A DNA stretch of 47,845 nucleotides from Paracoccaceae bacterium (lineage in GTDB: Bacteria > Pseudomonadota > Alphaproteobacteria > Rhodobacterales > Rhodobacteraceae). Positions 6,099 through 32,252 of the stretch are shown here, in pieces (positions within the stretch are counted from its first letter, which is position 1; each line of letters starts with the position of its first letter). Both the position numbers and the translations under genes were made by a program. Where the stretch lies: positions 1-47,845 of the forward strand of contig JACSRN010000097.1 of assembly GCA_014879735.1 (NCBI GenBank), written 5' to 3'. The notes beneath the pieces were generated by a model. It made no database searches. It was not told the DNA's origin and worked only from the letters and a program-made list of their open reading frames with translations.

Positions 6099-6116
6099 TT
6101 CACCTCTCAGGGGTAT
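6099..6116 (+). promoter_or_regulatory. Shared motif site 1, upstream of flavin reductase/P450
   Basis: Reads TTCACC-tctcag-GGGTAT. It points at the flavin reductase but is 262 bp from its start, the longest distance of the set. Confidence 0.55.
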
Positions 6117-6378
6117 GGGACGACGCGCTGAAATGGCGGAGCATCGGGCGGCCGGTGCTGACCCGGGCGCGCGACAGCAGCATCCGCCGACGGGGTTCGC
6201 ATCCAGCCCGGAGGCCAGGCTGACAAGACCCAGCGCCATATTATGGCCGGCCTTAGGGGCGATCCTTGGGCTGCAGCCTTGAACGGCGGACAGTGGCAGG
6301 CGCCTTGCGCCTGTGGGTCTGAGTATCCTGGGCGTCTGGGCTCGGCGAGGCGGGTGAAAGGGACAAGGTGAGACAGGC

Positions 6379-6903
6379 ATGATGGACGGAGCACAAGGCA
6401 TGGAAACCGCTGTCGACCGCAATATCTTTCGCGAGGCGATGTCCCGGTTGGGGGCAGCCGTCTGTGTCGTCACCTCGAATGGCCCGGCGGGCCGCTGCGG
6501 GACGACCGTCACCGCGGTCAGCAGTGTCACGGATACGCCGGCCACATTGCTGGTCTGCCTGAACCGCAATGCGCGGGCCAATGCGGTGATCCGCGGGAAC
6601 GGCCTGTTCTGCGTCAATGTCCTGACGCATGACCATGTCGATCTGGCCGGGCATTTTGCCGGGCAGACCGGCGTGCCATCCGAATCCCGGCTCGATGGCA
6701 TCGATCACGGCGTTCTGGTGACGGGGGCGCCGGTGCTGGATGGTGCGTTGGTGGCATTCGACTGCCGGGTGCAGAATGTCATGGAATCCGGCACGCATTC
6801 GATCTTTCTGGCACAGGTGGCCGACATCCGGCTGGGTGACGAGGGCAAAGCCCTGATGTATTTCCAGCGTCGTTATGCGGCGCTGGACGAACGGGGCGCC
6901 TGA
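6379..6903 (+). CDS. Flavin reductase family protein (HpaC-like)
   Basis: A 174-residue FMN-binding split-barrel protein, the family of HpaC, RutF and other NAD(P)H:flavin reductases that supply reduced flavin to two-component monooxygenases. Family hallmarks visible are the start of the barrel around AAVCVVTS, the TAVSSVTDTPATLLVCLNR loop that holds the flavin, NGLFCVNVL, and the C-terminal HSIFLAQV strand. The length is normal. It has two candidate ATG codons (6379, 6382). The only class D oxygenase visible nearby is the acyl-CoA-dehydrogenase-like protein at 15019-16278, a likely partner since both carry the same upstream motif. The downstream P450 has its own reductase and would not need it. 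Confidence 0.88.
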   Translation: MMDGAQGMETAVDRNIFREAMSRLGAAVCVVTSNGPAGRCGTTVTAVSSVTDTPATLLVCLNRNARANAVIRGNGLFCVNVLTHDHVDLAGHFAGQTGVPSESRLDGIDHGVLVTGAPVLDGALVAFDCRVQNVMESGTHSIFLAQVADIRLGDEGKALMYFQRRYAALDERGA

Positions 6904-6928
6904 AAGACGTCACCTTTCGGAGGGATGG

Positions 6929-7081
6929 ATGCCAATTCAGCACCGCCTTAGCGTCAGGACCTGGCCGCTGCCTCAGACCGCGCGCCCGGATGGTTCCGTC
7001 TGGACACCCGGTCCGCAGGCCCCGATGCAGGGCCGGCAATCCACAGCCTTCCGGTTCATGACCGGGGCCGGACGGGAATGA
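6929..7081 (+). CDS. Possible small ORF (50 residues) before the P450
   Basis: ATG 6929 is preceded by CGGAGGG, and the frame ends at TGA 7079-7081, overlapping the P450 ATG as ATGA, which is the typical coupling arrangement in this window. The product would be a proline- and arginine-rich 50-residue peptide without recognised motifs. It may be a leader that couples translation of the P450, or chance. A degenerate GTCACC-N7-GGGAT resembling the shared motif lies at 6909-6926, directly before it. Confidence 0.3.
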   Translation: MPIQHRLSVRTWPLPQTARPDGSVWTPGPQAPMQGRQSTAFRFMTGAGRE

Positions 7082-9291
7082 ATGCCATGAACGATATCGC
7101 CGCCTTCCTCGACAGCATCACCCTGGATATGCTGGAGGAGAACCCCTATCCGATCTATGCGCGATTGCGCCGCGAGGCGCCGGTGGCCTTCGTGCCGGCG
7201 GCAGGGGTCTGGTTCGCCACCCGGTTTGAGGATTGCGAAGCCATCGGTACCGGCAAGATGGGCTTTGTCGGCGCCAAGGACCACCCCACGCTGCAGCGGG
7301 TGTTCGGATCACCCAATGTGCTGACCTCGGACGGCGAGGTCCATGACGAATTGCGCAAGGGGGTTGACCCCAGGCTGCAGCCGAATGCCGTCAACGACAT
7401 GGTGGATGCCGTCGTTCGGCCCATCGCGCGCGGCCGGCTGGAGGCGATCCGCGCCAATGGTCGCGCCGAACTGATGGGCGACTATCTGGAACCCGTCAGC
7501 GTCGAGGCGTTGCGCCATGTCATGGGGCTGGACGATCTGGTCGGCGCCGATACGCTGCGGCGCTGGTTCCACGATCTGAACCTGGGCATTGCCAATTTCG
7601 GGCTGGAGCCGGAGGGGTTCGCCATTGCCGATGCGGCCTCGGCCGAGATCGCGCGGGTGATCCGGCCGAAGCTGGAACATCTTGCCGCCCATCCCGACGA
7701 TTCCATGATGTCGCACATGCTCTGGGCCGGGCGGACGCCGGAGCAGGGCGCGCGGCCGTTCGAGTTCATCACCCCCTCGCTGCGGGTGATTCTGCTGGGC
7801 GGAATGCAGGAGCCGGGCCATGCAGCGGGCAGCACCGTGATGGGGCTGTTCTCGCGCCCCGAACAATGGCGGATGCTGAGCGAGAACCCCGACGAATACA
7901 TCCTGCCCGCAATCAACGAAGGGCTGCGCTGGATCGCACCGATCGGTTCGGTCGAGCGGCAGGCCTCGCAGGATGTTGATCTGCACGGTCAGCACATTGC
8001 GGCCGGCTCCATTGTCCAGGTGGTTCTCGGTTCGGCGAACCGTGACGAGACCCGGTTCGACGATCCCGACAGCTTTGACATGCTGCGCGCGGCGCGAGCG
8101 CATCAGGCCTTTGGCAATGGCGTGCATTTCTGCGCCGGGCATTTCTTCGCCCGCAAGGTCGAGGAGATCATGTTGCAGGAAATGGTGGCCGCCCTGCCGG
8201 GCCTGCGTCAGCAACCCGACAGCCAGATCGAGGTCTCGGGCTGGGTGTTCCGGGCGCCGAAGAAGTTTCCGGTCGAATGGCAGCCGGTTGTGGCGGCGCC
8301 CATCCGCACGAATATTTGCAGCACCGCCCCGGTGGTCACGCCGGCCCAGGCCGCTGACACCCGGATTCTGACGGTCATGGCGCTGCGACTGGTGGCCGAA
8401 GACGTGATCGAGATCGAACTTCGCGATCCCGAGGGCCGCGACCTGCCCGCCTGGGAGGCCGGTGCGCATGTGGATCTGTGGCTGCAGCCGGGCCGGGCGG
8501 CGCAATATTCGTTGTGCGGCGACCCTTCTGACCGCAAGCGCTGGCTGGTCGCGGTGTTCCGCGAGTCGGCCAGCCGCGGCGGGTCGCGTTTCGTGCACGA
8601 GGAGTTGCGGCCGGGGATGCGGCTGCATGTCGGCGGCCCCCGCAACCATTTCGCCCTGGAACCCGGGGCGGCGATCAGCTTCGTGGCCGGCGGGATCGGG
8701 GTGACGCCGATCCTGGCCCTGGCCCGGGCGGCGCGGGCGGCGGGTCGCGAGGTGGAGGTCGCCTATTGCGGGCGCCGGCGGACCGGCATGGCCTATGCTG
8801 CCGAGGTTGCCGATCTGGGCGGTACCCTGCATGCCCGGGACGAAGGGCCGCGCGCCGACATTGATGCGCTGGTCCGGGCCGCTGCAACGCGCGGGGCAGA
8901 GATCTATGTCTGCGGCGGCGATGCCTTGCGCGAAGCGGTGGAGGAGCGGGCCGGCGAACACGGCGTCACCGTCCGGTCGGAACGGTTCAGCGGCGTTGCC
9001 GCACATCGCGAGGGCGATTTCGCCTTTGACGTGACGCTGGCCCGGCGCGGTTGCACCCTGCACATTCCGGCCGACCGCAGCATCCTGGACGTGCTGGACG
9101 ACGAGGGGATCGAGGTGCGCCGGTCCTGCCAGGAGGGCAATTGCGGGTCTTGCGAAACGGCCCTTCTGGCGGGCGATGCCGATCACCGCGATGTCCTGCT
9201 GACGGCAAAGCAGCGTGCGGCGAACGACCGGATCATGCTCTGCGTCTCGCGGGCGATCCGGCCGGACGATCGCTTGGTGCTGGACCTCTGA
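7078..9291 (+). CDS. Self-sufficient cytochrome P450 fused to FMN/2Fe-2S reductase (CYP116B-like)
   Basis: A single 737-residue chain. Residues about 1-400 form a P450: ExxR helix at Glu281-Arg284, I-helix stretch GGMQEPGH at 241-248, and the haem loop FGNGVHFCAG with axial Cys352. After a short linker (about 405-430) comes a phthalate-dioxygenase-reductase-like module with a flavin-binding QYSLCG strand, the NAD-binding GGIGVTPILAL region and a C-terminal 2Fe-2S ferredoxin domain (CX4CX2C at Cys684, 689, 692 and Cys722). This domain order is that of CYP116B enzymes (P450RhF type), which use NAD(P)H directly to hydroxylate or dealkylate aromatic and aliphatic compounds. It is slightly shorter than typical members. 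The usual acid-Thr pair of the I-helix is not obvious and reads as QEPGH. The class assignment is strong; the substrate is unknown. Confidence 0.92.
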   Translation: MNAMNDIAAFLDSITLDMLEENPYPIYARLRREAPVAFVPAAGVWFATRFEDCEAIGTGKMGFVGAKDHPTLQRVFGSPNVLTSDGEVHDELRKGVDPRLQPNAVNDMVDAVVRPIARGRLEAIRANGRAELMGDYLEPVSVEALRHVMGLDDLVGADTLRRWFHDLNLGIANFGLEPEGFAIADAASAEIARVIRPKLEHLAAHPDDSMMSHMLWAGRTPEQGARPFEFITPSLRVILLGGMQEPGHAAGSTVMGLFSRPEQWRMLSENPDEYILPAINEGLRWIAPIGSVERQASQDVDLHGQHIAAGSIVQVVLGSANRDETRFDDPDSFDMLRAARAHQAFGNGVHFCAGHFFARKVEEIMLQEMVAALPGLRQQPDSQIEVSGWVFRAPKKFPVEWQPVVAAPIRTNICSTAPVVTPAQAADTRILTVMALRLVAEDVIEIELRDPEGRDLPAWEAGAHVDLWLQPGRAAQYSLCGDPSDRKRWLVAVFRESASRGGSRFVHEELRPGMRLHVGGPRNHFALEPGAAISFVAGGIGVTPILALARAARAAGREVEVAYCGRRRTGMAYAAEVADLGGTLHARDEGPRADIDALVRAAATRGAEIYVCGGDALREAVEERAGEHGVTVRSERFSGVAAHREGDFAFDVTLARRGCTLHIPADRSILDVLDDEGIEVRRSCQEGNCGSCETALLAGDADHRDVLLTAKQRAANDRIMLCVSRAIRPDDRLVLDL

Positions 9292-9310: not shown

Positions 9311-9328
9311 GTAACCGCCTGAGGGTAT
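9311..9328 (+). promoter_or_regulatory. Shared motif site 2, upstream of peptide ABC operon
   Basis: Reads GTAACC-gcctga-GGGTAT, 101 bp before the chosen start of the binding protein and oriented toward it. The bases after it (CGTCGGC) are identical to those after site 4. Confidence 0.75.
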
Positions 9329-9429: not shown

Positions 9430-10968
9430 ATGGCACTCAGGTCTCCTTTCCTTTCCCGCCGGGGATTCATGCAGGTTGCGGGCGGCGCCACCCTGATGGG
9501 CCTGTCGGGGCTTGGCCGGGATTATGCCAGTGCGCAGACCACCGCCGGTTTGCTGCGCCTGGGCTTTGCCGGTGGCGGCAGCACCGAACGGTTCGATCCG
9601 CATGCCCCGGTCGGCCTTGCGGTCGGTGCGCTGTCGCAGTCGATCTTCGAGCAGATCACCCAGGTCGGCCCCGATTTTCTGCTGAACCGCTCCTTGGCCG
9701 AGGAGATCACGCCCAATGCGACGCTGGACCAATGGGATGTGCGACTGCCGGCCGGAGTGGAGTTTCACAACGGCAAGACGCTGACGGCCGAGGATCTGAT
9801 GTTCACCGTCCGGCGCATCCTGGACCCGAAAAGCCCGGGATATGCTGCCGGGCAACTGGCCTTCGTCGATCTCGACAACATGACCGCGCTGGACGAGCGC
9901 ACCGTCCGCTTCAAGCTGAAGGCGCCGTTTGCCTTCTTCGAACTGGCCTTCGGCGACGGCGGCGTCATGGGCGTGGTGCCTACCGATTTCTCGCTGGACA
10001 ATCTGGTCGGCACGGGCCCCTACAAGATCAAGTCGATCACGCCCGGCCAGCAGATCGAACTGGTCCGGCACGAAAACTACTGGGGCGATCGCCCGATCCT
10101 CGACGAGGTGGTGGCGCTGAACTTCAAGGATGATTTTGCGCGGGTGAACGCCCTTATCGGCGGGCAGATCGACGCGATGAACCAGTTGCCACTGAGCATG
10201 CTGAAGATGCTGGAGGGTCGCGAGGACGTCTCGACCCTGCTGTCGGACACCGGGCTGTTCAACCCGTTCTCGATGCGCGTCGATGAAGGCCCGTTCGCCG
10301 ACAACCGCGTCCGGCAGGCATTCCGGCTGATGGTCGACCGCGACGAGGCGGTGGCCCAGGCCTTCGGCGGCAATGCCTCGGTCTGCAATGACCTCTATTC
10401 GCCAATGGATCCCGATTACAACGGCAGCCTGATGCGCAGCCACGACCCGGAAAAGGCCAAGGCCCTGCTGAAGGAAGCCGGCGCCGAGGGGATGGAATGC
10501 ACGCTGGTCGTGGCGCCGGTGCGCTTTGGCATGGTAGAGGCGGCACAGGTCATCGCCAACCAGGCTTCGAAGATCGGCGTCACGGTGAACATCAAGAAGC
10601 TGGAGGCCGCGGCCTCGCGAAGCCCCGAGGTTCTGGACAGCCCGTTCAGCTTTGGCCTGTTCCCCGGCCTGTCGTATCATACCATGTGCGCCATCTCGGA
10701 CGGGCCCTATTCGACGCTGAACTCCACCCGCTTTGCCGATGATGAGTTCAAGAGCCTGTTCGACCAGGTCTCGGCCGAACCGGATGCCGGTAACCGGCAC
10801 GGGATCATGCAGCGGATGCAGGAAATCCAGTTCGACAAGGGCGGCTATCTGCTGCCGGCCTTCCCCAAGGCGGCCGATGCCTTCAGCGACCGGGTGAAGG
10901 GCGTGGTTCCCGACGCATCGGGTCTGGGTCTGGGGCGGTGCCGGTTCGGCGTGCTGTCGCTGGCCTGA
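9430..10968 (+). CDS. ABC transporter substrate-binding protein, peptide/opine family, Tat-exported
   Basis: A 512-residue family 5 (DppA/OppA-type) periplasmic binding protein that captures peptides, opines, nickel complexes or similar ligands. The N-terminus carries a twin-arginine signal, SRRGFMQ followed by a hydrophobic stretch, with cleavage likely after ASA. The mature domain shows FDPHAP, the W-x-VRLPAGVEFHNGKTLTAEDL region and the GTGPYKI turn typical of the family. The start at 9430 was preferred over an in-frame ATG at 9340: it has AGGAAA six to eight bases upstream and gives a signal peptide of normal length. It is the first gene of a four-gene importer operon, with the permease start 1 bp after its stop. 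Confidence 0.9.
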   Translation: MALRSPFLSRRGFMQVAGGATLMGLSGLGRDYASAQTTAGLLRLGFAGGGSTERFDPHAPVGLAVGALSQSIFEQITQVGPDFLLNRSLAEEITPNATLDQWDVRLPAGVEFHNGKTLTAEDLMFTVRRILDPKSPGYAAGQLAFVDLDNMTALDERTVRFKLKAPFAFFELAFGDGGVMGVVPTDFSLDNLVGTGPYKIKSITPGQQIELVRHENYWGDRPILDEVVALNFKDDFARVNALIGGQIDAMNQLPLSMLKMLEGREDVSTLLSDTGLFNPFSMRVDEGPFADNRVRQAFRLMVDRDEAVAQAFGGNASVCNDLYSPMDPDYNGSLMRSHDPEKAKALLKEAGAEGMECTLVVAPVRFGMVEAAQVIANQASKIGVTVNIKKLEAAASRSPEVLDSPFSFGLFPGLSYHTMCAISDGPYSTLNSTRFADDEFKSLFDQVSAEPDAGNRHGIMQRMQEIQFDKGGYLLPAFPKAADAFSDRVKGVVPDASGLGLGRCRFGVLSLA

Positions 10969-10969
10969 C

Positions 10970-11977
10970 ATGGGATCGGGACCCGCCATCGCCACCCCGT
11001 CGCGCCTGCAGCCCGTCCGCCGCGCGGCGGGATGGCTGATCCGCCGCGTCGCCGGCAGCCTGCTTGCGCTGGCTGCCGTCACCATCATGGTCTTTCTGGC
11101 GTTCAAGGCCATGCCGGAGGATCCGGCCCAGATCATTCTGGGCGAGATGGCGCGGCCCGAGGCGATTGCCGATCTGCGCGAGAAGCTTGGCCTCGACCGG
11201 CCTCTGGTGACGCAATATCTGGAATGGGTTGGCGGCATGCTGCGGGGCGATCTGGGCCGGTCCTGGGCTGGCGCCGCATTGCCGGTTGGCGAGCTTGTCG
11301 GGCCGGCACTGGTCAATTCGCTGGTTCTTGTCGCGCTTGGCAGCCTGTTCGCCATTCCGTTGGCGGTCCTGCTGGGCGTGCTGACGGCGCTGTGGCGCAA
11401 CAGCCTGTTCGACCATCTGGCCGACTATACCCTCCTGGGCATGAGCTCGATCCCTGAATTTGCCAAGGGCATCTTCCTTGTCCTTCTGTTGTCGATCGGG
11501 CTTTTCAACCTGTTGCCCGCCGCGGCGATGATCCCGCCTGGCGAGTTGCCGTTGTGGTATCCCGCGCAGATCGCGCTGCCGGTTCTGGTTCTGGTCCTGT
11601 CGGCGCTGCCCTATCTGACGCGGCTGGTCCGCTCGTCGATGATCGATGCGCTGAATTCGGAATATGTGCAGATGGCGCGGCTGAAGGGCGTGTCAGAGGC
11701 GCGCATCCTGTTTCGCCATGCGCTGCCCAACACCGCGGCGCCGGTGATCCAGGGCGCCGCGCTTTCCACCGCGCTGATGCTGGGCGGCTCGGTGGTGATC
11801 GAGAACCTGTTCCGTTATCCCGGGGTCGGCGCGCTGATGACCGACGCCATGACCAGCCGGGACCTGCCGCTGGTGCAGGCCGTGATCGTGTCCTTCGCGG
11901 CCTGCTACATGGTGATCAACCTGATTGCCGATGTGCTGATCCTTTACGCCAATCCCCAGTATCGGAGTGCCCGGTGA
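10970..11977 (+). CDS. ABC transporter permease, DppB type
   Basis: A 335-residue inner-membrane permease of the oligopeptide/dipeptide class. Six hydrophobic segments are visible, beginning with ALAAVTIMVFLAF. The periplasmic ILGEMARPEAIADLREKLGLDRP stretch is characteristic of DppB/GsiC proteins. The cytoplasmic EAA loop, EYVQMARLKGVSEARILFRH, contacts the ATPase. The N-terminus is about 20 residues longer than in classical DppB and rich in Arg. The ATG lies 1 bp after the binding-protein stop, and the end overlaps the next start as GTGA. Confidence 0.92.
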   Translation: MGSGPAIATPSRLQPVRRAAGWLIRRVAGSLLALAAVTIMVFLAFKAMPEDPAQIILGEMARPEAIADLREKLGLDRPLVTQYLEWVGGMLRGDLGRSWAGAALPVGELVGPALVNSLVLVALGSLFAIPLAVLLGVLTALWRNSLFDHLADYTLLGMSSIPEFAKGIFLVLLLSIGLFNLLPAAAMIPPGELPLWYPAQIALPVLVLVLSALPYLTRLVRSSMIDALNSEYVQMARLKGVSEARILFRHALPNTAAPVIQGAALSTALMLGGSVVIENLFRYPGVGALMTDAMTSRDLPLVQAVIVSFAACYMVINLIADVLILYANPQYRSAR

Positions 11978-12858
11978 GCATGATCGAGGAACAGCTTCTC
12001 GCCACTGGCCCGGCCGATCTGCCGGTTCCGGCGCAGCGTCCCGGGCTTTTGCGCCGCGCGCTTCGGCAGACCCGCGGCCGTATCGGTCTTGGCGTCCTGC
12101 TGGCCGTGGTGGCCCTGTCGGTGGCCGGCCCCTGGATTGCGCCGCATTCGCCCTATGATTTTGTCGCGATGCCGTTCCAGCCGCCCGATGCCGTGACCTG
12201 GCTGGGCGCCGACAACATGGGGCGCGATGTGCTATCGCGCATCCTGAACGGCGGCTGGATCCTGATGACGATGGCGCTGTCGGCCACCGCGCTGGCCATG
12301 CTGGCGGGAACTGTTCTGGGCCTTGTCGCGGGCTATGCCGGCGGGCGAACCGATGCGGTGATCATGCGGCTTCTCGACGTGGTGCTGGCGGTGCCCGAGC
12401 GGGTTCTGGTGCTGATGTTCGTTTCGGTCATTGGCGCAAATCAGGTGATCCTGACACTGGCGACGGGGCTGGTCTTCATCCCGTCCATCGCACGCACCGC
12501 ACGGGCGGCGACGATGGACATCGTGCGCAACGAATATGTCGAATATGCCGAGGCCATCGGCATGTCGCGTTGGCAATTGCTGCGCGACGAGATTTTGCCG
12601 AATGTGACGACGCCGCTGATGGTGGAGGCCGGGTTCCGCCTGACCTGGTCCATCGGGCTGATCACCGGGATCAGCTTCATCGGCTTCGGCACCCAGCCAC
12701 CCACGCCGGAATGGGGCCTGATGATCAATGAATCCCGCGATGGCCTGCTGTTTCAGCCCTGGGCCGTGGTGGCGCCGATCCTATGCATCGCCGCTTTCGT
12801 GATCGGGGTGAACCTGCTGGCCGATGCCATCGCCCGCGCGGCGGGGAGGACGGAATGA
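11974..12858 (+). CDS. ABC transporter permease, DppC type
   Basis: A 294-residue second permease subunit. The N-terminal helix (GVLLAVVALSVAGPWIA) is followed by a periplasmic segment with WLGADNMGRDVLSRIL, the conserved DppC/GsiD signature, and an EAA loop EYVEYAEAIGMSRWQLLRDE. GTG 11974 was chosen because GGAG lies 6 bp upstream and the GTGA overlap matches the style of neighbouring junctions; ATG 11980 in the same frame is the alternative. The end overlaps the ATPase start as ATGA. Confidence 0.9.
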   Translation: MSMIEEQLLATGPADLPVPAQRPGLLRRALRQTRGRIGLGVLLAVVALSVAGPWIAPHSPYDFVAMPFQPPDAVTWLGADNMGRDVLSRILNGGWILMTMALSATALAMLAGTVLGLVAGYAGGRTDAVIMRLLDVVLAVPERVLVLMFVSVIGANQVILTLATGLVFIPSIARTARAATMDIVRNEYVEYAEAIGMSRWQLLRDEILPNVTTPLMVEAGFRLTWSIGLITGISFIGFGTQPPTPEWGLMINESRDGLLFQPWAVVAPILCIAAFVIGVNLLADAIARAAGRTE

Positions 12859-14453
12859 CCGCTGTCGTTGACGTGCAGGGCCTGTGCGTGCGGCTGAGCG
12901 CCACCGGCGAGGAGGTCGTCTCGGACGTGACGTTTTCGATCGGCCGGGGCGAGATTCTGGGCGTGGTCGGCGAATCCGGTTCGGGCAAAACCTCCATCGG
13001 GATGACGCTGCTGGGCTATCTGCGCAAGGGGGCAGAGGTTTCGGCCGGAGAGATCCGGGTGGACGGGACCGACATGCGGCGCGCGCCAGAGGCCGAACTG
13101 CGCCGCATGCGCGGCGCAGTCGTCTCCTACATCCCGCAGGATCCGGCGGCGGCGCTGTCGCCCCGGCTGACCATCGGAACCCAACTGGCCGAGACACTGT
13201 CGGCGCATGGCCGGAAGGGGCGTGACGCTGCCGCCCGCATCGCCGCGATGATGCGGGCGCTGGATCTTCCCGATGACCGGGCCTTTCTGCGCAAATATCC
13301 CCATCAGCTTTCCGGCGGGCAAAAGCAGCGGATCTGCATCGGCATGGCGTTCCTGCTGAACCCGGCCGTGGTGATGCTGGACGAACCGACGACCGGGCTG
13401 GACGTGCTGACCCAGGATTCCGTGTTGCGCACCGTGCGCCGGCTGTGTGCCGACCATCAGGTTGCAGCACTTTATGTCACGCATGACCTGCCGGTCGTGG
13501 CGGGCGTGGCGCATCGGGTCATGGTGATGAAATCCGGCCATATCGTCGAACAGGGGCCGGTGGCCGAGGTTTTCGCCCGGCCACAACACGCCTATACCCG
13601 CGAATTGATTGCCGCCGCGCCGGACATTTCCTGCCGCCACCACTTCGGCCGCGCAGTGCCCGCGCCTGCAACTGCGACGTCGCCGGCCGGCCCGCCCGCG
13701 GCGCCGGTTCTGCGCGTGGTCGGGCTGGATGCGCATTACGACCGGCGCCAGGTGCTGCACGGGGTTGCGCTTGACCTTGCGCCGGGGGAATGTCTTGCAC
13801 TGGTCGGGCAATCCGGCTCTGGCAAAAGCACGCTGTCACGGACCATCATCGGGCTGCACAACGCTTCGGCCGGGGCCATCGTGCTGGATGGCGAGACGCT
13901 GGCCAACCTGGCGCGTGACCGCACGCCCGCGCAGCGCAAGCGCCTGCAATACGTGTTCCAGAGCCCGTTCACCGCGCTGAACCCGCGACGCAGCGTGGCC
14001 GAGGCGATCGCCGCGCCGATCCGGACCTTCGGCGAGACGCCGGACCGGACGCGCATTGCCGAACTGCTGGACATGGTGTCGCTGTCCCAAAGGGTGGCCA
14101 GCTTGTACCCGTCCGACCTGTCGGGCGGTGAACGGCAGCGCGTTGCCATCGCCCGGGCCATGGCCACCGACCCCGACGTGCTTCTGTGCGACGAGATCAC
14201 CTCGGCGCTGGACGTCAGCGTGCAGGCCGCCATCGTGCGGCTGCTGAAATCCCTGCAGGAGGAACGGCAGGTTTCAATGATCTTCGTCACCCACAACCTG
14301 GCATTGGTGCGGTCACTGGCCGACCGGGTTGCGGTGATGCAGGGGGGCCGGATCGTCGAGACCGGCCCGACGGATCGCGTGCTGGACAACCCCGAGGCGG
14401 ATTATACCCGGCTTCTGGTCGAGATCACGCCCTCCATGCAGCCCGCCGCCTGA
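12855..14453 (+). CDS. Fused double ATPase of the peptide ABC importer (DppD-DppF type)
   Basis: A 532-residue protein with two complete nucleotide-binding domains in tandem, replacing the separate DppD and DppF of the second importer in this window. Domain 1: Walker A GESGSGKT at 39-46, signature LSGGQKQR at 152-159, Walker B VVMLDEPTTGLD. Domain 2: Walker A GQSGSGKST at 318-326, signature LSGGERQR at 422-429, Walker B VLLCDEITSALD. The two are joined by an Ala/Pro-rich linker near residue 275. Both sites look competent, except that Walker B of domain 2 has CDEIT rather than the usual LDEPT. Fused ATPases of this layout (GsiA/YejF type) are known. Confidence 0.93.
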   Translation: MTAVVDVQGLCVRLSATGEEVVSDVTFSIGRGEILGVVGESGSGKTSIGMTLLGYLRKGAEVSAGEIRVDGTDMRRAPEAELRRMRGAVVSYIPQDPAAALSPRLTIGTQLAETLSAHGRKGRDAAARIAAMMRALDLPDDRAFLRKYPHQLSGGQKQRICIGMAFLLNPAVVMLDEPTTGLDVLTQDSVLRTVRRLCADHQVAALYVTHDLPVVAGVAHRVMVMKSGHIVEQGPVAEVFARPQHAYTRELIAAAPDISCRHHFGRAVPAPATATSPAGPPAAPVLRVVGLDAHYDRRQVLHGVALDLAPGECLALVGQSGSGKSTLSRTIIGLHNASAGAIVLDGETLANLARDRTPAQRKRLQYVFQSPFTALNPRRSVAEAIAAPIRTFGETPDRTRIAELLDMVSLSQRVASLYPSDLSGGERQRVAIARAMATDPDVLLCDEITSALDVSVQAAIVRLLKSLQEERQVSMIFVTHNLALVRSLADRVAVMQGGRIVETGPTDRVLDNPEADYTRLLVEITPSMQPAA

Positions 14454-14486
14454 GGTGGCGGCGACAAGTCCCGGAAAGGAAATGAC

Positions 14487-23155: not shown

Positions 23156-23258
23156 TTCCGAACTCCTCAGGGACCGATCGCACCAGGCGGGGCGACGACT
23201 TTCGTGCATTCAACGGCAGCGGTGTGGCTCTGCCAAGCCGGGAAAGCGGAATATGTTA

Positions 23259-23308: not shown

Positions 23309-23331
23309 GGTTCTCTTGCCAGCCCGGTCGG

Positions 23332-24690
23332 TCAGGCGGCGGTTGCTGCGGACAGCGCCTTGTCCAGCGCCTGTTCGATCTTGTCGATATGATGCGATTC
23401 GACCACCAGGCAGGGCGAGATGATGACATTCGCGCCCGAGGTGCGAAGCATGACCCCGGCGTCATAGGCGGTATCGAACAGCACCTGCATGGCCCCCTTG
23501 CCAAGCGGTGTCTTCGCCGAGCGGTCGCTGACCAGCTCCAGCGCGGCCATCAGGCCCTTTCCGCGGACGTCGCCCACGATGGCATGGCGCGTCTTCAGCC
23601 GCTCCAATGCGGCCAGCAGTTCGTCGCCGCGCAGTTTGGCATTGGCGACGATGCCTTGGCGTTGCACCTCTGCCAGCGTGGCCAGCGCTGCTGCGGCGCC
23701 GACCGGATGGCCGGAATAGGTATAGCCGTGGCTGATCGTGCCGCGCTCGTCCGAGGCCTCGAACACCTCGGCAATCCGTTCGGACACCAGCGTTGCGCCG
23801 ATCGGGAAGAAGCCGTTCGAGAGCGACTTTGCAGTGGTCATGATATCGGGCCGGATGCCCCAGAGGCGCGAGCCGCTTTCGGCCCCGGCACGGCCGAAGC
23901 CGGTGATCACCTCGTCGGCGATCAGCAGGATGCCGTGGCGGTCGCAGATCCGGCGCATCAGCGGGAACAGCGTTTCATGCGGCACGATCACCCCGCCCGA
24001 CCCCAGCACCGGCTCCATGATCAGCGCGGCGATGGTATCGGCGCCCTGGAAGGCGATCTCCTCCTCGAAGGTTTCGGCGATCCTCTGCGCGATGACCGCG
24101 CCATCCGCGGTGCCGAAGGGATTGCGATAGGCATAGGGTGCGGGCAGGTGGAAGGTGCCAGACAGCATCGGTTCGTAGTTGCGGCGGAAATTGGCGTTGC
24201 CATTGACCGAGGCACCACCCATGTGGGTGCCGTGATAGCCCTTCTTCAGCGAGAAGAACTTGGTCCGCTCGGGCTGGCCGGTCAGGCGGTGAAACTGTCG
24301 GGCCAGCCGCAGCGCGGTTTCCACACTGTCCGATCCGCCCGAGGTGAAAAAGGCTCGCGCCATGCCTTCTGGCGCAAAAAAATCGGTCAGCGCGACCGAA
24401 AGCTCGATCAGGCGGTCATGCGTCGTGCCGCGAAATGCGTTGTAATAGGGCATCCGGCCGATCTGGTCGATCATCGCCTGTTTGACCGCGGGCGCACTAT
24501 GGCCGAGGCTGACGTTCCACAGCCCGCCCACGGCATCCAGCATCCGATGCCCGTCGATGTCGATCACGTCGACCCCGTCGGATTCCACCACGATGCGGGG
24601 CGGGTTCTTCCGCATCCCGCCAGGATGCGCCATCGGGTGCCAGCCAAAGCGGGCGTTGTTTTCCTTGAGGAAGTTGGAATCCTTCATCAT
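23332..24690 (-). CDS. Class III (omega) aminotransferase, PLP-dependent
   Basis: A 452-residue fold-type I aminotransferase of the omega-amino acid:pyruvate / beta-alanine / putrescine transaminase group. Landmarks are DAVGGLWNVSLGH near the N-terminus, the FFTSGGSDSVETALRLAR phosphate-binding loop, LLIADEVITGFGRAG with the cofactor-binding Asp, and MTTAKSLSNGF with the Schiff-base lysine at Lys288. The length is typical. AGGAGA precedes two adjacent ATG codons. It lies 13 bp after the HAD gene and is the last gene of the IclR operon. It would remove the amino group from an amine or omega-amino acid, and the aldehyde formed could go to the aldehyde dehydrogenase at 30689-32173. Confidence 0.92.
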   Translation of the reverse strand: MMKDSNFLKENNARFGWHPMAHPGGMRKNPPRIVVESDGVDVIDIDGHRMLDAVGGLWNVSLGHSAPAVKQAMIDQIGRMPYYNAFRGTTHDRLIELSVALTDFFAPEGMARAFFTSGGSDSVETALRLARQFHRLTGQPERTKFFSLKKGYHGTHMGGASVNGNANFRRNYEPMLSGTFHLPAPYAYRNPFGTADGAVIAQRIAETFEEEIAFQGADTIAALIMEPVLGSGGVIVPHETLFPLMRRICDRHGILLIADEVITGFGRAGAESGSRLWGIRPDIMTTAKSLSNGFFPIGATLVSERIAEVFEASDERGTISHGYTYSGHPVGAAAALATLAEVQRQGIVANAKLRGDELLAALERLKTRHAIVGDVRGKGLMAALELVSDRSAKTPLGKGAMQVLFDTAYDAGVMLRTSGANVIISPCLVVESHHIDKIEQALDKALSAATAA

Positions 24691-25364: not shown

Positions 25365-26087
25365 TCATCCTGAATGGCTGGGATAGCTGTCGGGGAAGGC
25401 GCCCGCAAAAAGGCGGGTGGCCTCGGCCGAGGCCCGCAGCAGGGCCGTGGCAATGTCGGTCTCGTACCCCGCGGTCATCCGCGAGATCGGCGAGGCGACC
25501 GCAATTGCCCCGAGGGCAAGGCCGTCCGGCCCGAAGATCGGGGCGCCGATCCCCAGCACGTCGGGGTCGAAGGTGCCCCGGGCACAGGCATAGCCGCGCA
25601 GCCGCGCCTCGGCGAGCAATGCGGGGTCCAGCGGGCCAATCACCGGCAGCGGCGGACCCCAGGCCAGGCAGGCCAGGCCGCTGGCGGTGGAACCGACGGT
25701 CAGCAGCCCGCCCGGCTCGACATGGACGCGGCTGGCATGCAGCCCTTCGGCGCTGGCGATGGTGACGATCTTGCCGCCGGCGATCAGCGAGGCATGGCTG
25801 GTTTCCTGGGTCTGCTGGGCCAGCGATTGCACGACGGGCTGCAGCAGCACGCCGGTCGGCATCACCGCCTCGCGCATCCGGGCCAGCCGCAGGACCGCGG
25901 GACCCAGCGCATAGCGGCGATCCGTGACGGACTGGTCCAGATAGCCGCCGGCCTGCAGGGCGCGAAGCATCCGGTGGCAAGTGGCCTTGTCGATTCCGCT
26001 CAGCCGGACGACATCGGTCAGCCGCAGCCGGGGTGCGGCTTCGGTGAAGAGATCCAGGATGGACAGGGCCCTCGTCACGGTCCGCAT
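25365..26087 (-). CDS. IclR-family transcriptional regulator 1
   Basis: A 240-residue IclR regulator. The winged helix-turn-helix is at about 1-65 (SILDLFTEAAPRLRLTDVVRLSGIDKATCHRML) and the effector domain follows (LAQQTQETSHASLIAGGKIV, then VGSTASGLACLA, then the C-terminal ALGAIAVASPISRM). No Shine-Dalgarno is evident before ATG 26087. It heads an operon with the HAD hydrolase and transaminase, and its divergent upstream region holds two outward-facing copies of the shared motif. That is the layout expected of an autoregulated IclR protein that controls the regulon, but this link is inferred. Confidence 0.9.
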   Translation of the reverse strand: MRTVTRALSILDLFTEAAPRLRLTDVVRLSGIDKATCHRMLRALQAGGYLDQSVTDRRYALGPAVLRLARMREAVMPTGVLLQPVVQSLAQQTQETSHASLIAGGKIVTIASAEGLHASRVHVEPGGLLTVGSTASGLACLAWGPPLPVIGPLDPALLAEARLRGYACARGTFDPDVLGIGAPIFGPDGLALGAIAVASPISRMTAGYETDIATALLRASAEATRLFAGAFPDSYPSHSG

Positions 26088-26151: not shown

Positions 26152-26169
26152 ATACCCTCCCGCGGTGAC
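26152..26169 (-). promoter_or_regulatory. Shared motif site 6, upstream of IclR operon
   Basis: On the minus strand reads GTCACC-gcggga-GGGTAT, 64 bp before the IclR start and oriented toward it. Confidence 0.8.
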
Positions 26170-26186: not shown

Positions 26187-26204
26187 GTCACCCTTCGCGG
26201 GTCT
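26187..26204 (+). promoter_or_regulatory. Shared motif site 7, upstream of Tm-1-like gene
   Basis: Reads GTCACC-cttcgc-GGGTCT, 79 bp before the Tm-1-like start and oriented toward it. It lies only 17 bp from site 6 on the other strand. Confidence 0.65.
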
Positions 26205-26283: not shown

Positions 26284-27549
26284 ATGAGCAAGACCAAGAC
26301 CATCCTGATTGTCGGCACCTATGACACCAAGGCCGAGGAACTGGCTTTCGTCGAACAGGTCATCCGCGATCAGGGTGGCAAGGCGATCAGCATGGACGTC
26401 TCGGTTCTGGGAGAGCCGGGCCACCCGCCGACCCATTCCCGGCACGAGGTGGCGGCGGCAGCCGGAACCGACATAGCGGCCGTGGCCGCTTCGGGCGACG
26501 AGAACACCGCGATGGCGATCATGGCGCGCGGGGCGGCGGCGCTGGCCTTGCGGCTGCATGCCCGCGGCGCCTTTGACGGGATGATTGCGCTTGGCGGCAC
26601 GATGGGCACCGATCTGGCGCTGGACGTGGCGCTGGCCTTGCCGCTGGGTGTTCCGAAATACATCGTCTCCACCGTCGCCTTTTCGGCGGTGATCGCGCCC
26701 GAGCGGCTGCCCGGCGATGTGCAGATGATCCTCTGGGCCGGTGGGCTTTATGGCCTGAACGCCTTTTGCGCCTCGACGCTGGCCCAGGCTGCAGGCGCGG
26801 TGCTGGGGGCGGCCCGCGCAACCCGGCGGCCCGCGCCCGCCCGACCGCTGGTCGGCATCACCTCGCTTGGCAATGCCTGCCTGCGCTATATCAGAATCCT
26901 GAAGCCCGAGCTTGAGGCGCGCGGCTACGAGGTCGCGATCTTTCATTCGACCGGCATGGGCGGTCGCGCCTTCGAGGCATTGGCCGGCCGGCGCGGCATG
27001 GTGGCCGCGCTGGACCTCTGCCTGCAGGAGTTCAACAACGGCCTGTTCGGGTCGATCATCAACAGCGGTACGACCCGGCTGGAAAGCGCCGGCGCAGCCG
27101 GGGTGCCGCAGATCGTGGCGCCGGGTGCGGCTGACCTGGTGGACTGGCCCACCTGGGCGCCGCTGCCCGAATCCTTCAAGGACCGGCCGGTCCATGTCCA
27201 CAACAAGCTGATTTCCTCACTGACCATCAATGCCGAGGAACGCATCTTCGTCGCGCGCGAGATTGCGGCGCGGCTGAACCTTGCCACGGCGCCGGTCCAT
27301 ATGATGATGCCGCTCGGCGGGGTCGAGGCCTGGGACCGTCCCGGCGAGGTGGGGCATGCACCCGGGGATCTGGCGGCATTCTATGCCGCGCTGCGGGAAA
27401 GCCTGTCGCCCCGCGTCGCCCGGACAGAGCTTGACTGCCACATCAATGCGCCGGAATTTGCGGCGGCCGTGCTGCGCATCTTCGACGAATGGGTCGCGCT
27501 TGGCATCGTGCCGCCGGCGCAAAGCGAACCGGCGCGCGTCCCGGCCTGA
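26284..27549 (+). CDS. Tm-1-like ATP-binding domain protein (UPF0261)
   Basis: A 421-residue protein of the UPF0261/Tm-1-like family, whose plant member Tm-1 is a virus-resistance protein; the bacterial role is poorly defined. Family landmarks are the N-terminal ILIVGTYDTKAEELAFV, the GGTMGTDLALDVALALPLGVPKYIVST stretch, ITSLGNACLRYI at the second-domain start, the FHSTGMGGRAFE loop, and the C-terminal MMPLGGVEAWDRPG. The start at 26284 follows GGAAAG with normal spacing. Bacterial homologues often sit in catabolic clusters, as here, divergent from an IclR gene with a motif copy on each side. I cannot assign a reaction. Confidence 0.88.
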   Translation: MSKTKTILIVGTYDTKAEELAFVEQVIRDQGGKAISMDVSVLGEPGHPPTHSRHEVAAAAGTDIAAVAASGDENTAMAIMARGAAALALRLHARGAFDGMIALGGTMGTDLALDVALALPLGVPKYIVSTVAFSAVIAPERLPGDVQMILWAGGLYGLNAFCASTLAQAAGAVLGAARATRRPAPARPLVGITSLGNACLRYIRILKPELEARGYEVAIFHSTGMGGRAFEALAGRRGMVAALDLCLQEFNNGLFGSIINSGTTRLESAGAAGVPQIVAPGAADLVDWPTWAPLPESFKDRPVHVHNKLISSLTINAEERIFVAREIAARLNLATAPVHMMMPLGGVEAWDRPGEVGHAPGDLAAFYAALRESLSPRVARTELDCHINAPEFAAAVLRIFDEWVALGIVPPAQSEPARVPA

Positions 27550-29120: not shown

Positions 29121-29834
29121 ATGACCGAGATCAGCCTGACGGGCGATGCAATGCTCAGCGTGCTGGAATGCGTGGCGGCGCATGGGCCGATTTCGGCCAC
29201 GCAATGCGCACGGCACTGCAACCTCAACCGCACGGTGGCGCACCGGCTGCTGACGACGCTGATGCGGCGGCTTTATGTCGTGAAGACGACGGCGGGCTAC
29301 CTGCTTGGCCCGGCCGCCGTTTCCATTGCTGCGCAGGCGCAGCCCAGTATCGTCAGTATCGCCAAGCCCGAGATGGCGCATCTTGCCGCCGGCGTGCGCG
29401 AAAGCGTGGTGCTGCACGGGCTGATCGAGGACGAGGCAATCGTGCTGGATCAGGCGCTGGATCTGACGCATGTCGTGGTGGTGCGGCACAATCAGGGTTC
29501 GCGCCACCCGCTGTTCCGGGGGGCCAGCGGATGGTCGCTGCTGGCGTTCCAGCCCGGCCGCCTGACCGACCGCGTGTTGGCAGGCCTGCCCGAAACCGAA
29601 CGCGAACCGGCGCGCCGGCGGATCGAGAAGGTCCGCACGCTCGGCTATGCCCATTCGCGGGACGAGCTGCAACTGGGGGTGCACGGCCTGGCGGCGCCGG
29701 TCCGCGGCCGGGACGGCTTTGCCCAGGCCTCGATCGGAATATTGGTGCCGCAAAGCCGCGCCACCAATCTCTTGGGCATGAGCACGCCGCTGCTGGCCTG
29801 TGCCCGCGCCATCGAGGCCCGGCTTTCGGCCTGA
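29121..29834 (+). CDS. IclR-family transcriptional regulator 2
   Basis: A 237-residue IclR-like protein. The winged helix is at about 5-65 (SVLECVAAHGPISATQCARHCNLNRTVAHRLLTTL) and the effector domain follows (MAHLAAGVRESVVLHGLIEDEAIVLD, SRHPLFRGASGWSLLAF, LGYAHSRDELQLGVHGLAAPV). GGGGAAGCGGA precedes the ATG. It is divergent from the FAH/decarboxylase pair, which it probably controls through the repeats between them. It shares little sequence with the first IclR, and its promoter lacks the GTnACC motif. Confidence 0.9.
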   Translation: MTEISLTGDAMLSVLECVAAHGPISATQCARHCNLNRTVAHRLLTTLMRRLYVVKTTAGYLLGPAAVSIAAQAQPSIVSIAKPEMAHLAAGVRESVVLHGLIEDEAIVLDQALDLTHVVVVRHNQGSRHPLFRGASGWSLLAFQPGRLTDRVLAGLPETEREPARRRIEKVRTLGYAHSRDELQLGVHGLAAPVRGRDGFAQASIGILVPQSRATNLLGMSTPLLACARAIEARLSA

Positions 29835-29889: not shown

Positions 29890-30477
29890 TCAGGCATTGA
29901 TCCCGGTGCGGATCGTCTGGCGTGCCTCGGCCGCGTTCTTTTCCCGCATATCGAGATAGGCTTCGAAATCGAAGGCGAGGATGTCGATTTCCTGGATCGG
30001 GTCATAGGGGCGGGCAGCGCCGTCCCAGCCGATGGTGTCGATGCCCCAGTAGAATTCCAGCAGGTTGCCGTCGGGATCGCGCGCATAGAAGCGGGGCTGG
30101 TTGCCAGGCCCGCCCTTGCGGCAATTGACGATCTCGATCCCGTCGTCGCGCATCAGGGTATAGAGCGCCTTCAGATCGGCGGGCGAGGACAGTTCGAACG
30201 CCAGATGATGCAACCCGAAGCCATAGCGTGGCACCGGCGGTGCGTCGTCGGGCAGGATCTCCTTGCGCATCTTGAAGATCGACAGCTCGTGATGCGTGGT
30301 GTCGCACCGGATGAAAGCACCGGCCTGAACGGCGACGCCATGACCAAGCCGGACCTCTTCGTATTCGAACTTCTCGGTCAGCCGCATCCCCAGATACTTG
30401 CTGTAGAACTCGATGGTCCGGTCGATATCGCGGACCGTCAGCCCGACATGGCCGATCTTTGTGACCTTCGGTTTCAC
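29890..30477 (-). CDS. VOC family protein, extradiol-dioxygenase/glyoxalase-like
   Basis: A 195-residue vicinal-oxygen-chelate protein. Two beta-alpha-beta-beta-beta modules are visible, with candidate metal ligands His10 (KIGHVGL), the His of GLHHLAFE and the Glu of NLLEFYWG, matching the His-His-Glu triad of type I extradiol dioxygenases. A C-terminal extension of about 45 residues is unusual for glyoxalase-like members. The start is GTG 30477, with GGAGGAA 5 bp upstream. It has its own copy of the shared motif. With the FAH hydrolase it could form a ring-cleavage pair. A glyoxalase or isomerase role cannot be excluded. Confidence 0.85.
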   Translation of the reverse strand: MKPKVTKIGHVGLTVRDIDRTIEFYSKYLGMRLTEKFEYEEVRLGHGVAVQAGAFIRCDTTHHELSIFKMRKEILPDDAPPVPRYGFGLHHLAFELSSPADLKALYTLMRDDGIEIVNCRKGGPGNQPRFYARDPDGNLLEFYWGIDTIGWDGAARPYDPIQEIDILAFDFEAYLDMREKNAAEARQTIRTGINA

Positions 30478-30540: not shown

Positions 30541-30558
30541 ATACCCGCAGAAGGTTAG
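30541..30558 (-). promoter_or_regulatory. Shared motif site 8, upstream of VOC gene
   Basis: On the minus strand reads CTAACC-ttctgc-GGGTAT, 63 bp before the VOC start and oriented toward it. The left half differs from site 2 in one base. Confidence 0.75.
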
Positions 30559-30688
30559 TCGGGTGGCCGGTCCACGGCGGCAATCCCGTGCCGTCATCCC
30601 CTGCCGGACAGGCCCGCAGGCGATGGGACACGACCCCGATACAAGCGCCATGGCCGCGCGATGGCACGGCCGCCGCCGGCCCGCCCGG

Positions 30689-32173
30689 TCAGAGCTGGAA
30701 CCAGGCCGTCTTGAGGTTGATGTATTTTTCCAGCGCATGAAGCGACTTGTCATGCCCGTTGCCCGACTGGCGGTGCCCGCCCAGGGGCACGGTCAGATCC
30801 GATCCGCCATAGGTGTTCACATGAACCACACCGGCGTCGATCGCCGCCACCATCCGGTGGGCGCGCGACAGGTTTCCCGTCCACACCGCCGAGGCCAGGC
30901 CGAAGGTGGTGTCGTTTGCCAGTTGCACGGCCTCGGCCTCGTCGCGGAAGGGCAGGACGGCCAGCACCGGGCCGAACACCTCCTCGCGTGCCAATGCCAT
31001 GCCGGGGCCGACACGGTCCATGACGGCGGGCCGCATATAGGTTCCGCCGGTTTCCTGCAGGATGCGCTCGCCGCCGGTGACGCGGCGGGCGCCTTCGGCC
31101 TCGGCCGTGGCGACATGGGAAAGATTCTGCTGCAATTGCGCCTCTGAGACCACCGCGCCGACCTCGGTCGTCAGATCCAGGGGGTCGCCCACCCGCATTG
31201 CCGCGGTCTGGCGGGCGACCCGCTCGACGAATTCGTCGTGAACCGACTGCTCCACCAGCAGCCGTGACCCCGCGACGCAGACTTGCCCGGCGTTGCGGAA
31301 GATCGCCTGGGTTGCAACCCTGGCGGCCCGGTCCAGATCGGGCGCATCGGCAAAGACGATGTTGGGCGACTTGCCCCCGAGTTCCAGGTAGACCCGCTTC
31401 AGATTCGACTGCGCCGAGGCAATCAGCAATTGCCGGCCAACGCCATTCGACCCGGTGAAGGCCAGAACGTCGACATCGCCGTGGCGGGACAAGGCCTCGC
31501 CCGCGACCGATCCCTTGCCGGTGACGACATTCAGAACCCCTTCGGGCAGGCCGCACTCCGTGCAGATCGCAGCCAGGCGCAGCAGCGTCAGCGAGGCGAG
31601 TTCGGCGGGCTTCAGCACCACCGAATTGCCCATGGCCAACGCGGGCGCCAGTTTCCAGGCCCCGATCATCATCGGCATGTTCCACGGCACGATCGCGCCC
31701 ACCACCCCCACGGGGCCGCGATGGACAAGCCCCAGAACGTCCGGCGCAGTGGGGGCGATCTCGCCGTAGATCTTGTCCAGTGCCTCGGCATAATAGCGGA
31801 AGGTGTTCGCGGCACCCAAAGGCTCTGCCTTCAGCGCCATAGACAGTTCGGTACCGTTGTCGCGCACGCCCAGAACGGCAATTTCCAGCGCCTCCGCCTC
31901 CAGCCGGTCGGCGATGCGGTGCAGGATTTTCTTGCGGGCCGCCGGTGCCATCCGCGACCAGGTCCCACGTTCGAAGGCATTGCGGGCCGCGGCGACGGCA
32001 CGATCCACGTCGCTGGCATCCCCGGCAGCGATCCGGGTCAGCGGCAGGCCATCAAGTGGCGAATGAACCTGGGTTTCGCCGCCGCGACCGTCCTGCCATT
32101 CTCCGGCGATCAGCAGCCTGCCCTGCGGCACGGGTTTCGTTCGGATCGCGTCGATCTGGGCTTGTGTCGTCAT
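30689..32173 (-). CDS. Aldehyde dehydrogenase (NAD(P)-dependent)
   Basis: A 494-residue aldehyde dehydrogenase of the betaine/gamma-aminobutyraldehyde-like group. WNMPMMIGAWKLAPALAMGNSVVLKPAE forms the cofactor site, LELGGKSPNIVF carries the general-base Glu and NAGQVCVAGSRLLV the catalytic Cys; EEVFGPVLAVLPF is also present. The start at 32173 gives the family's normal length. It would oxidise an aldehyde made by the transaminase or by oxidative dealkylation to the acid. It is divergent from the XRE-cupin regulator but carries its own motif copy. Confidence 0.92.
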   Translation of the reverse strand: MTTQAQIDAIRTKPVPQGRLLIAGEWQDGRGGETQVHSPLDGLPLTRIAAGDASDVDRAVAAARNAFERGTWSRMAPAARKKILHRIADRLEAEALEIAVLGVRDNGTELSMALKAEPLGAANTFRYYAEALDKIYGEIAPTAPDVLGLVHRGPVGVVGAIVPWNMPMMIGAWKLAPALAMGNSVVLKPAELASLTLLRLAAICTECGLPEGVLNVVTGKGSVAGEALSRHGDVDVLAFTGSNGVGRQLLIASAQSNLKRVYLELGGKSPNIVFADAPDLDRAARVATQAIFRNAGQVCVAGSRLLVEQSVHDEFVERVARQTAAMRVGDPLDLTTEVGAVVSEAQLQQNLSHVATAEAEGARRVTGGERILQETGGTYMRPAVMDRVGPGMALAREEVFGPVLAVLPFRDEAEAVQLANDTTFGLASAVWTGNLSRAHRMVAAIDAGVVHVNTYGGSDLTVPLGGHRQSGNGHDKSLHALEKYINLKTAWFQL

Positions 32174-32234
32174 GCCTGCACTCTGGCTGTCGCTGATTTT
32201 GCCCGAAGTTTCGGACGAGAATCCCCCCGGACCC

Positions 32235-32252
32235 AGTCCCTCGGAAGGTGAC
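32235..32252 (-). promoter_or_regulatory. Shared motif site 9, upstream of aldehyde dehydrogenase
   Basis: On the minus strand reads GTCACC-ttccga-GGGACT, 61 bp before the start and oriented toward the gene. The left half is perfect; the right half deviates at two bases. Confidence 0.6.

Follow-up and report, generated by a model that had tools for sequence, protein, structure and literature searches.

The 47,845-nucleotide contig JACSRN010000097.1 of a Paracoccaceae bacterium (assembly GCA_014879735.1), analysed here over its whole length as contig C160 and referred to as the window, makes up 1.1% of a 4.39-Mb genome. It carries an importer-rich gene cluster that also comprises FAH and CMD proteins, two IclR-family regulators (IclR1 and IclR2), one LuxR-family regulator, and an XRE-cupin regulator (gene content from Pfam, with NCBIfam applied to 10 proteins), which suggests aromatic or amine degradation. 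The subject of this report is a short motif, GTNACC-N6-GGGTAT, which is a real signal before about ten degradation and uptake promoters of the cluster, and the LuxR-family protein that probably recognises it (Table 1). The sites, their conservation, the co-occurrence with LuxR, the -10 spacing, and the protein fold were computed directly.

A first-pass annotation of the window had listed nine 18-bp copies of the motif, and all nine are found at the positions and on the strands given there. Sites 9311, 16348, and 26152 match GTNACC-N6-GGGTAT exactly, 6099, 16400, 26187, and 30541 with one mismatch, 32235 with two, and 21245 with three; a further copy at 6909 brings the number to ten. On the sequence, the consensus is better given as T-M-A-C-C-N-T-N2-R-A-G-G-G-T-A, in a 7-2-7 layout. 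All window matches with at most two mismatches, likewise ten in number but with 4630 (see below) in place of 21245, are intergenic (3.1 kb of the 47.8 kb). The reported distances also hold, with eight of the nine sites 49-101 bp and five of them 60-69 bp from the likely start codon (hand counts). The exception, 6099, is doubtful as the promoter element of the flavin reductase gene because of its distance, and its assignment to a gene is uncertain. The promoters of LuxR, FAH/IclR2, XRE-cupin/Dpp2, and the non-ribosomal peptide synthetase (NRPS) gene, said to lack the motif, contain no match of 9 bits or more to the matrix described below. A two-mismatch match at 4630 (-), aimed at the 3' end of an ECH gene and scoring 11.0 bits, was rejected as probably due to chance.

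The density of matches across the genome had been named beforehand as a critical check, and here the motif is concentrated in the window at zero or one mismatch, not at two or three. The exact motif occurs three times in the whole genome, each time in the window (backward control, 0), and 7 of the 33 genome matches with at most one mismatch lie there. At two mismatches the genome holds 455 matches versus 549 for the backward control, and at three the window holds 73 versus a shuffle mean of 70.3, so that the loose consensus is uninformative alone and the claim had to rest on tighter tests. De novo analysis of the window intergenic DNA gave the motif as the best 6-N-6 seed at one mismatch (6 sites versus 3-5 in 12 shuffles), while at two or three mismatches GC-rich seeds rank first and the unshuffled DNA stays within the shuffle range.

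Among PLSDB plasmids, the LuxR protein has a single relative at E 1e-20, in Gemmobacter fulvus (70.7% identity). The Gemmobacter locus (L066) keeps the block ALDH-VOC-IclR2-FAH-CMD-Tm1-HAD-LuxR at 70.7-87.2% identity, with IclR1 and the class III aminotransferase (AT3) missing from it, and copies of the motif precede HAD (exact) and the aldehyde dehydrogenase (ALDH), VOC, and Tm-1-like genes (two mismatches each), the outward-facing pair included. The conservation in orthologous promoters that had been proposed as a check is thus seen in Gemmobacter, and in further genomes before ALDH, VOC, AT3, and other genes. The monooxygenase and P450 genes were abandoned as markers of orthologous clusters, no relative of at least 60% identity having appeared in the searches made at family, class, contig, and plasmid level; LuxR worked. 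Its alignment profile was run over genome contigs and the best 80 of at least 539 loci were kept, with relatives in Rhizobium, Mesorhizobium, Pseudomonas, Paucimonas, and Novosphingobium among others.

Thirteen loci around LuxR orthologs of 38-51% identity (L085-L097, 196 kb) constitute the near set; a reduced set drops L090, a near copy, and L096, which lies on the same contig as L079. The near set holds 23 motif matches with at most one mismatch (400 permuted motifs: mean 2.9, maximum 17) and three exact ones (mean 0.08, none reaching 3), and 10 of the 13 loci have at least one of the 23. Of these, 15 are directed toward a called start 57-97 bp away and one is at a distance of 24 bp; the other seven are inside rough open reading frame calls or have no next gene nearby. 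The 67 distant LuxR loci contain four exact matches to the window motif, a number reached by 4 of 400 permuted motifs; two of the four are in L109, from the same assembly as the near locus L094. The 13 one-mismatch matches at the distant loci are at chance level.

A de novo run over 62 intergenic regions of 8 of the 13 near loci (6-N-6 seeds, spacers 4-8), from which the window was excluded, put the motif first, with 9 regions versus 0.086 expected and a score of 15.2 versus 5.3-6.6 in four shuffles. The second seed of that run was CTGTTCGTGCGCTATTTC (5 regions, score 10.8). For a position weight matrix, 47 sites were hand-picked from matches with at most two mismatches before genes; training used 26 non-window sites from other genomes, those of L089, L090, L109, and L146 being left out, and weaker matches in L085 (11867), L088 (11337), L091 (5246), L094 (13445), and L097 (13012) were never used. 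Its nine best window matches, all intergenic (14.0-25.3 bits), are 26187, 6909, 16400, 6099, 30541, 26152, 32235, 16348, and 21245, in this order. Eight of the nine sites listed first are therefore recovered at the top, together with 6909, while 9311, exact to the consensus yet the weakest of the ten by matrix, ranks eleventh (11.1 bits), behind a coding match at 46749 (11.2 bits). At 12 bits or more there are 9 matches in the window versus 1.07 per 47.8 kb in control loci. Unlike the matrix, the window-excluded de novo run is independent of the motif as first described.

Without its outer bases, the motif consists of two inverted heptamers with a 2-bp spacer, i.e., the 7-2-7 arrangement of NarL-type operators, with a degenerate left half in the window clade and a near-perfect form in the distant one. 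In distant LuxR relatives, TACCCCT-N2-AGGGGTA with at most two mismatches has 12 occurrences no further than 500 bp from the gene (11 of 66 loci) and none in the other 806 kb. At three mismatches it occurs 29 times near distant luxR genes versus 15 times elsewhere, and 76 permuted palindromes gave a mean of 2.9 near the gene, one of them reaching 25 (24 elsewhere); this count leaves out L099 (a partial match) and matches inside luxR itself. A -10-like hexamer accompanies the sites at a fixed spacing. Of 36 hand-picked sites, 11 have a TAnnnT beginning at position 41, no other offset in the range 24-69 being shared by more than 4, and A and T occupy the second and sixth hexamer places at position 41 in 21 of the 36; read by eye, nAnnnT stands exactly there in 6 of the 10 window sites. 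In the distant clade, TAnnnT is found at the equivalent spacing, give or take one base, in 19 of 28 chosen sites (24 of the 29 palindrome matches and four sites from L070, L074, and L075, near copies included, six from Pseudomonas and four Thioclava-like), and no three-offset bin away from there holds more than 2 of the 28. The fixed spacing would therefore put the operator centre near -43, a position that fits class II activation. CGTC downstream of 9311 and 16400 was considered as a mark of an extracytoplasmic-function sigma factor and discarded, as it is not common to the other sites.

The first-pass annotation proposed one regulator for the whole regulon and named none, LuxR being listed there only among the promoters without a site; the identification of LuxR is new in this respect. 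Its C-terminus carries a GerE domain (PF00196, 37.0 bits, cut-off 23.5), and its N-terminus has in Pfam only a weak GAF match (E 0.04). PF03472 (Autoind_bind) gave no Pfam match at E up to 1 in the window LuxR or in the L092 and L070 proteins, although the fold is of that kind, and the protein is for this reason not filed under the LuxR solos defined by PF03472 plus PF00196 (PMC8546723). In the predicted structure (mean pLDDT 87) the sensor has an alpha/beta fold, and TraR, RhlR, and SdiA structures are among the best fold matches; there is no Pfam match to a receiver domain, so the protein does not qualify as a NarL/FixJ response regulator. A 24-sequence profile matches the VqsR ligand-binding domain (5xhx, E 1.3e-18, profile positions 5-182), which places a VqsR-like sensor domain in the protein, while a single-sequence PDB search with the window LuxR gave nothing at E 0.001. 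No autoinducer synthase is among the scanned window proteins, the rest of the genome not having been searched for LuxI. A 24-row tree separates the 14 near LuxRs from the rest by a branch with 100/100 support. The recognition helix reads NTVATHRK in the window clade and TVKVHRK, TVKIHRK, or TVRIHRR in the distant one, and E141 is invariant in the 24 sequences. Among the five distant loci whose neighbours were scanned, a PotA-type ABC gene lies beside luxR in L142 (Pseudomonas) and L101 (Sulfitobacter), a glutamine-synthetase-like gene in L117 and L132, and an oligopeptide-type ABC gene in L129.

Taken together, we consider, with a probability of about 0.85, that the LuxR-family protein 22337-23209 uses the sites as its operators and would jointly switch on the ten or so promoters. 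The idea of one regulon under one regulator thus gains support from clustering, conservation, and LuxR co-occurrence, regulation itself being a deduction. Several results weigh against this reading. In L066 (49.5 kb), 12 matches with at most two mismatches were counted, eight of them away from the four conserved promoters. The exact matches of the near set are confined to two loci (L092 and L093), and the 13 loci are not enriched at two mismatches (53 versus a permuted mean of 47.5, with 123 of 400 reaching 53). At one mismatch there is no match in L091 (49% identity; one two-mismatch site before FAH), L096 (38%, a 6.8-kb contig shared with L079), or L097 (38%; AT3 is preceded by a two-mismatch site). 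In eight genomes with a near LuxR, the one-mismatch counts for the whole genome (forward/backward: 35/33, 57/49, 43/59, 12/7, 39/31, 26/13, 27/25, and 9/16) are mostly near the backward control, and below it in two, so that only clustering marks real sites there; in G693, 8 of 39 such matches lie within 29 kb around LuxR. The motif combined with the -10 pattern gives three matches in the window's own genome at up to one mismatch, all in the window, and at two mismatches 14 (6 in the window) versus 16 in the control. At sites 16348, 16400, 21245, and 30541 there is no nAnnnT starting exactly at position 41, the matrix depends on the first-described motif because its training sites were hand-picked from two-mismatch matches to it, and luxR has no site of its own and lies behind a terminator-like hairpin. 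Moreover, the class II position, though it fits activation, may also be compatible with repression.

That the consensus is a product of chance, fitted by eye to GC-rich intergenic DNA, would agree with the chance-level counts at two and three mismatches; this is contradicted by the concentration at zero to one mismatch, the conservation in orthologous promoters, the independent de novo recovery, and the -10 spacing, and its probability is practically negligible. The fixed spacing to TAnnnT could also mean that the motif belongs to the core promoter, or to the promoter of an alternative sigma factor, and not an operator. The odds of this are slim, given that the motif is dyad-symmetric and, at zero to one mismatch, concentrated in LuxR-linked clusters, and that in alpha-, beta-, and gammaproteobacteria the 7-2-7 form goes together with a DNA-binding regulator.

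The remaining candidates are the two IclR proteins. IclR1 has a site in its own promoter (26152), which would make it an autoregulator, and IclR1-like genes (43-51% identity) accompany LuxR in L085-L090. It is nevertheless highly unlikely to bind the motif: the syntenic Gemmobacter block has the motif without IclR1, and a 38% IclR1-like gene about 20 kb away in Gemmobacter has its own, different palindrome; L092-L095 and L097 combine the motif with LuxR, with no IclR detected in stretches of up to 8 kb on each side; and a separate TTCAYTATTATCAA element lies beside the motif in four regions (L085, L086, L087, and L089). Eleven stretches around Tm-1-like genes in ten other genomes gave no match to LuxR at E 1e-15; an IclR1-like gene is present in nine, of which seven carry GGTTCA-N5-TGAACC (0-1 mismatch) at the IclR promoter, and the eleven contain no exact and one one-mismatch match to the motif. 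IclR2, for its part, is 75.5% identical in the Gemmobacter block with the motif and occurs also in L086, the only one of L085-L097 in which it was detected. Two Rhizobium plasmid clusters with IclR2 (49-51%) and no LuxR match lack the motif at zero to one mismatch, and binding by IclR2 is more improbable still. In all, LuxR-less clusters with IclR genes gave one motif match in 13 stretches. Both IclR proteins were set aside as the regulator on co-occurrence, as the motif does not track an IclR gene, and the LuxR-family protein is left as the shared factor because the motif follows LuxR loci, with or without IclR. GGTTCA-N5-TGAACC (0-1 mismatch) is itself a second operator-like palindrome of AT3-IclR-ALDH-Tm1 clusters in Rhodobacteraceae, found at the IclR promoters of L056 and L058-L063, before AT3 in L055 (8022), and in L066 (41274).

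Under regulation by LuxR, a dimer of the protein would bind the 7-2-7 site by its GerE-type helix-turn-helix, the half-sites being TMACCNT and, two bases on, the reverse complement of TACCCTY. With its centre some 43 bp before the transcription start, the operator would touch the -35 region, and LuxR would bring RNA polymerase to a -10 element separated from the end of the motif by 22 bp. A pathway substrate or intermediate is probably the signal read by the VqsR-like N-terminal domain, and about ten promoters (uptake, oxygenases, transaminase, aldehyde dehydrogenase, and ring cleavage) would thereby be turned on together. Direct binding by LuxR, activation rather than repression, the ligand, and the start sites are what we infer from these data.

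Table 1. Operator candidates, genes, and other features of the window (matrix scores in bits)
Feature	Coordinates	Strand	Remarks
Operator candidate TTCACCTCTCAGGGGTAT	6099-6116	+	about 262 bp upstream of flavin reductase; GAGCAT at -10 spacing; 19.0 bits
Flavin reductase	6379-6903	+	Pfam
Operator candidate GTCACCTTTCGGAGGGAT	6909-6926	+	absent from first-pass annotation; before P450-reductase gene (7078); TAGCGT at -10 spacing; 21.0 bits
P450, flavin reductase, and 2Fe-2S ferredoxin domain in one 737-aa protein	7078-9291	+	Pfam, NCBIfam
Operator candidate GTAACCGCCTGAGGGTAT	9311-9328	+	exact; before SBP5/Dpp/RidA genes; GAAGCT at -10 spacing; 11.1 bits
SBP5/Dpp-type importer and RidA-like protein	9430-14858	+	start 9430 chosen by eye
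Acyl-CoA-dehydrogenase-like flavin monooxygenase	15019-16278	-	best NCBIfam match HsaA, below its cut-off
Operator candidate	16348-16365	-	exact; before acyl-CoA-dehydrogenase-like monooxygenase; no nAnnnT at expected place; 16.2 bits
Operator candidate	16400-16417	+	before FAD_binding_3 monooxygenase and ABC/OCD genes; no nAnnnT at expected place; 20.8 bits
FAD_binding_3 monooxygenase, ABC importer, ornithine-cyclodeaminase-like (OCD), SBP3	16467-22234	+	Pfam
Operator candidate	21245-21262	+	before SBP_bac_3; TAGTCT one base earlier than usual -10 place; 14.0 bits
LuxR-family regulator, 290 aa	22337-23209	-	VqsR-like sensor domain and GerE helix-turn-helix; proposed regulator
Terminator-like hairpin (strong)	23275-23308 (or 23274-23309)	-	between aminotransferase and LuxR; part of sequence kept upstream of LuxR in Gemmobacter
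Class III aminotransferase	23332-24690	-	NF005683 above cut-off
IclR1	25365-26087	-	in operon behind operator candidate 26152; not required for motif elsewhere
Operator candidate	26152-26169	-	exact; before IclR1-HAD-aminotransferase, LuxR further downstream; TAATCT at -10 spacing; 17.6 bits; kept in L066 at 20207
Operator candidate	26187-26204	+	before Tm-1-like gene; AATATT at -10 spacing; 25.3 bits; kept in L066 at 20174
Tm-1-like (UPF0261) protein	26284-27549	+	Pfam, NCBIfam
IclR2	29121-29834	+	own promoter without motif; Rhizobium relatives occur without motif
VOC-family, extradiol-dioxygenase-like protein	29890-30477	-	NCBIfam matches below cut-off
Operator candidate	30541-30558	-	before VOC (extradiol-dioxygenase-like) gene; GATAAAA near -10 place; 18.8 bits; kept in L066 at 15911
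Aldehyde dehydrogenase	30689-32173	-	Pfam, NCBIfam
Operator candidate	32235-32252	-	before aldehyde dehydrogenase; GAAACT at -10 spacing; 16.3 bits; kept in L066 at 14321

Among 289 class genomes, with few candidates scored per genome, the 737-aa P450 fusion matched only its own genome at E 1e-100. Of 295 family genomes, two matched the monooxygenase 15019-16278 at E 1e-60, the source genome and another with 38% identity; relatives of the monooxygenase (44-45%) adjoin LuxR in L086-L090. In Pseudomonas (L092) the near LuxR is adjoined by Rieske VanA-like demethylases, FAH, and VOC, and hpa genes adjoin the Gemmobacter block; from such neighbours an aromatic or methoxy-aromatic amine might be guessed as the substrate. 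The XRE-cupin regulator and an adjacent second Dpp-type importer (32428-38409) lack the motif, and an open frame of more than 2,600 codons (39790-47845), NRPS according to the first-pass annotation, runs off the contig end. Five tandem TGGCC copies (5786-5810) follow an aldo/keto reductase gene, nothing else having been found in a tandem-repeat check of 5700-6400. Near-identical GNGACCCCCCCGGGGTAT strings occur on five G000 contigs (C11, C26, C83, C141, and C148), perhaps a dispersed repeat.

Assignment to LuxR would provide an orphan LuxR clade with a DNA target, a promoter geometry, and a gene set, and the 7-2-7 site beside the gene would offer an immediate reporter and ligand screen for the family. 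For the window, it would mean that uptake, oxygenases, transaminase, and ring cleavage belong to a single pathway, which opens the way to a search for its substrate. Literature searches aimed at such a regulon, confined to open-licence PMC, listed no description of the motif or the regulon, which is weak evidence of absence. A wider picture has roughly even odds: a proteobacteria-wide orphan LuxR family with a VqsR-like sensor may have left quorum sensing for amine and aromatic catabolism, using a NarL-like 7-2-7 operator at about -43, with each member reading the substrate of its own pathway, and one branch may have rewritten half-site and recognition helix together and taken over multi-operon pathways, this ten-promoter regulon being an example.

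Of the known systems, the LuxR solos of subgroup E (PjeR and PolR) of fluorescent pseudomonads are described, in the accessible part of PMC8546723, as orphan regulators with predicted ligands other than acyl-homoserine lactones, flanked by polyamine transport genes; that part mentions no operator for them. Reporter tests with three polyamines gave no induction (PMC8546723), which would be explained if each member reads its own substrate. L142, a Pseudomonas locus of the distant clade with a PotA-type ABC gene and a solute-binding protein adjoining luxR, would by its neighbours belong to this subgroup. In PjeR, G113 is changed to E (PMC8546723), and E141 of the 24 sequences may, judged by eye, be the same position. 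The window LuxR differs in belonging to a separate clade and in being accompanied by aromatic/amine catabolic genes. NarL and NarP share with it the two inverted heptamers 2 bp apart; an engineered NarL 7-2-7 site, TACCCCTAAAGGGGTA, has exactly the TACCCCT/AGGGGTA half-sites (PMC4549865, accessible part), and the distant-clade sites equal it save for the spacer and up to 2-3 bases. The window LuxR, however, has no receiver domain, and in its clade the left halves are altered (TMACCNT) and the recognition helix differs. With the quorum-sensing regulators LuxR, TraR, and RhlR it shares the two-domain fold, as predicted, and a putative operator near -43, the lux box being centred at -42.5 according to the portion of PMC4471428 available; it differs in a 16-bp 7-2-7 site versus the 20-bp lux box and in giving no Autoind_bind match in Pfam. 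VqsR of Pseudomonas aeruginosa has a homologous ligand-binding domain, a likeness known here from the profile match to 5xhx.

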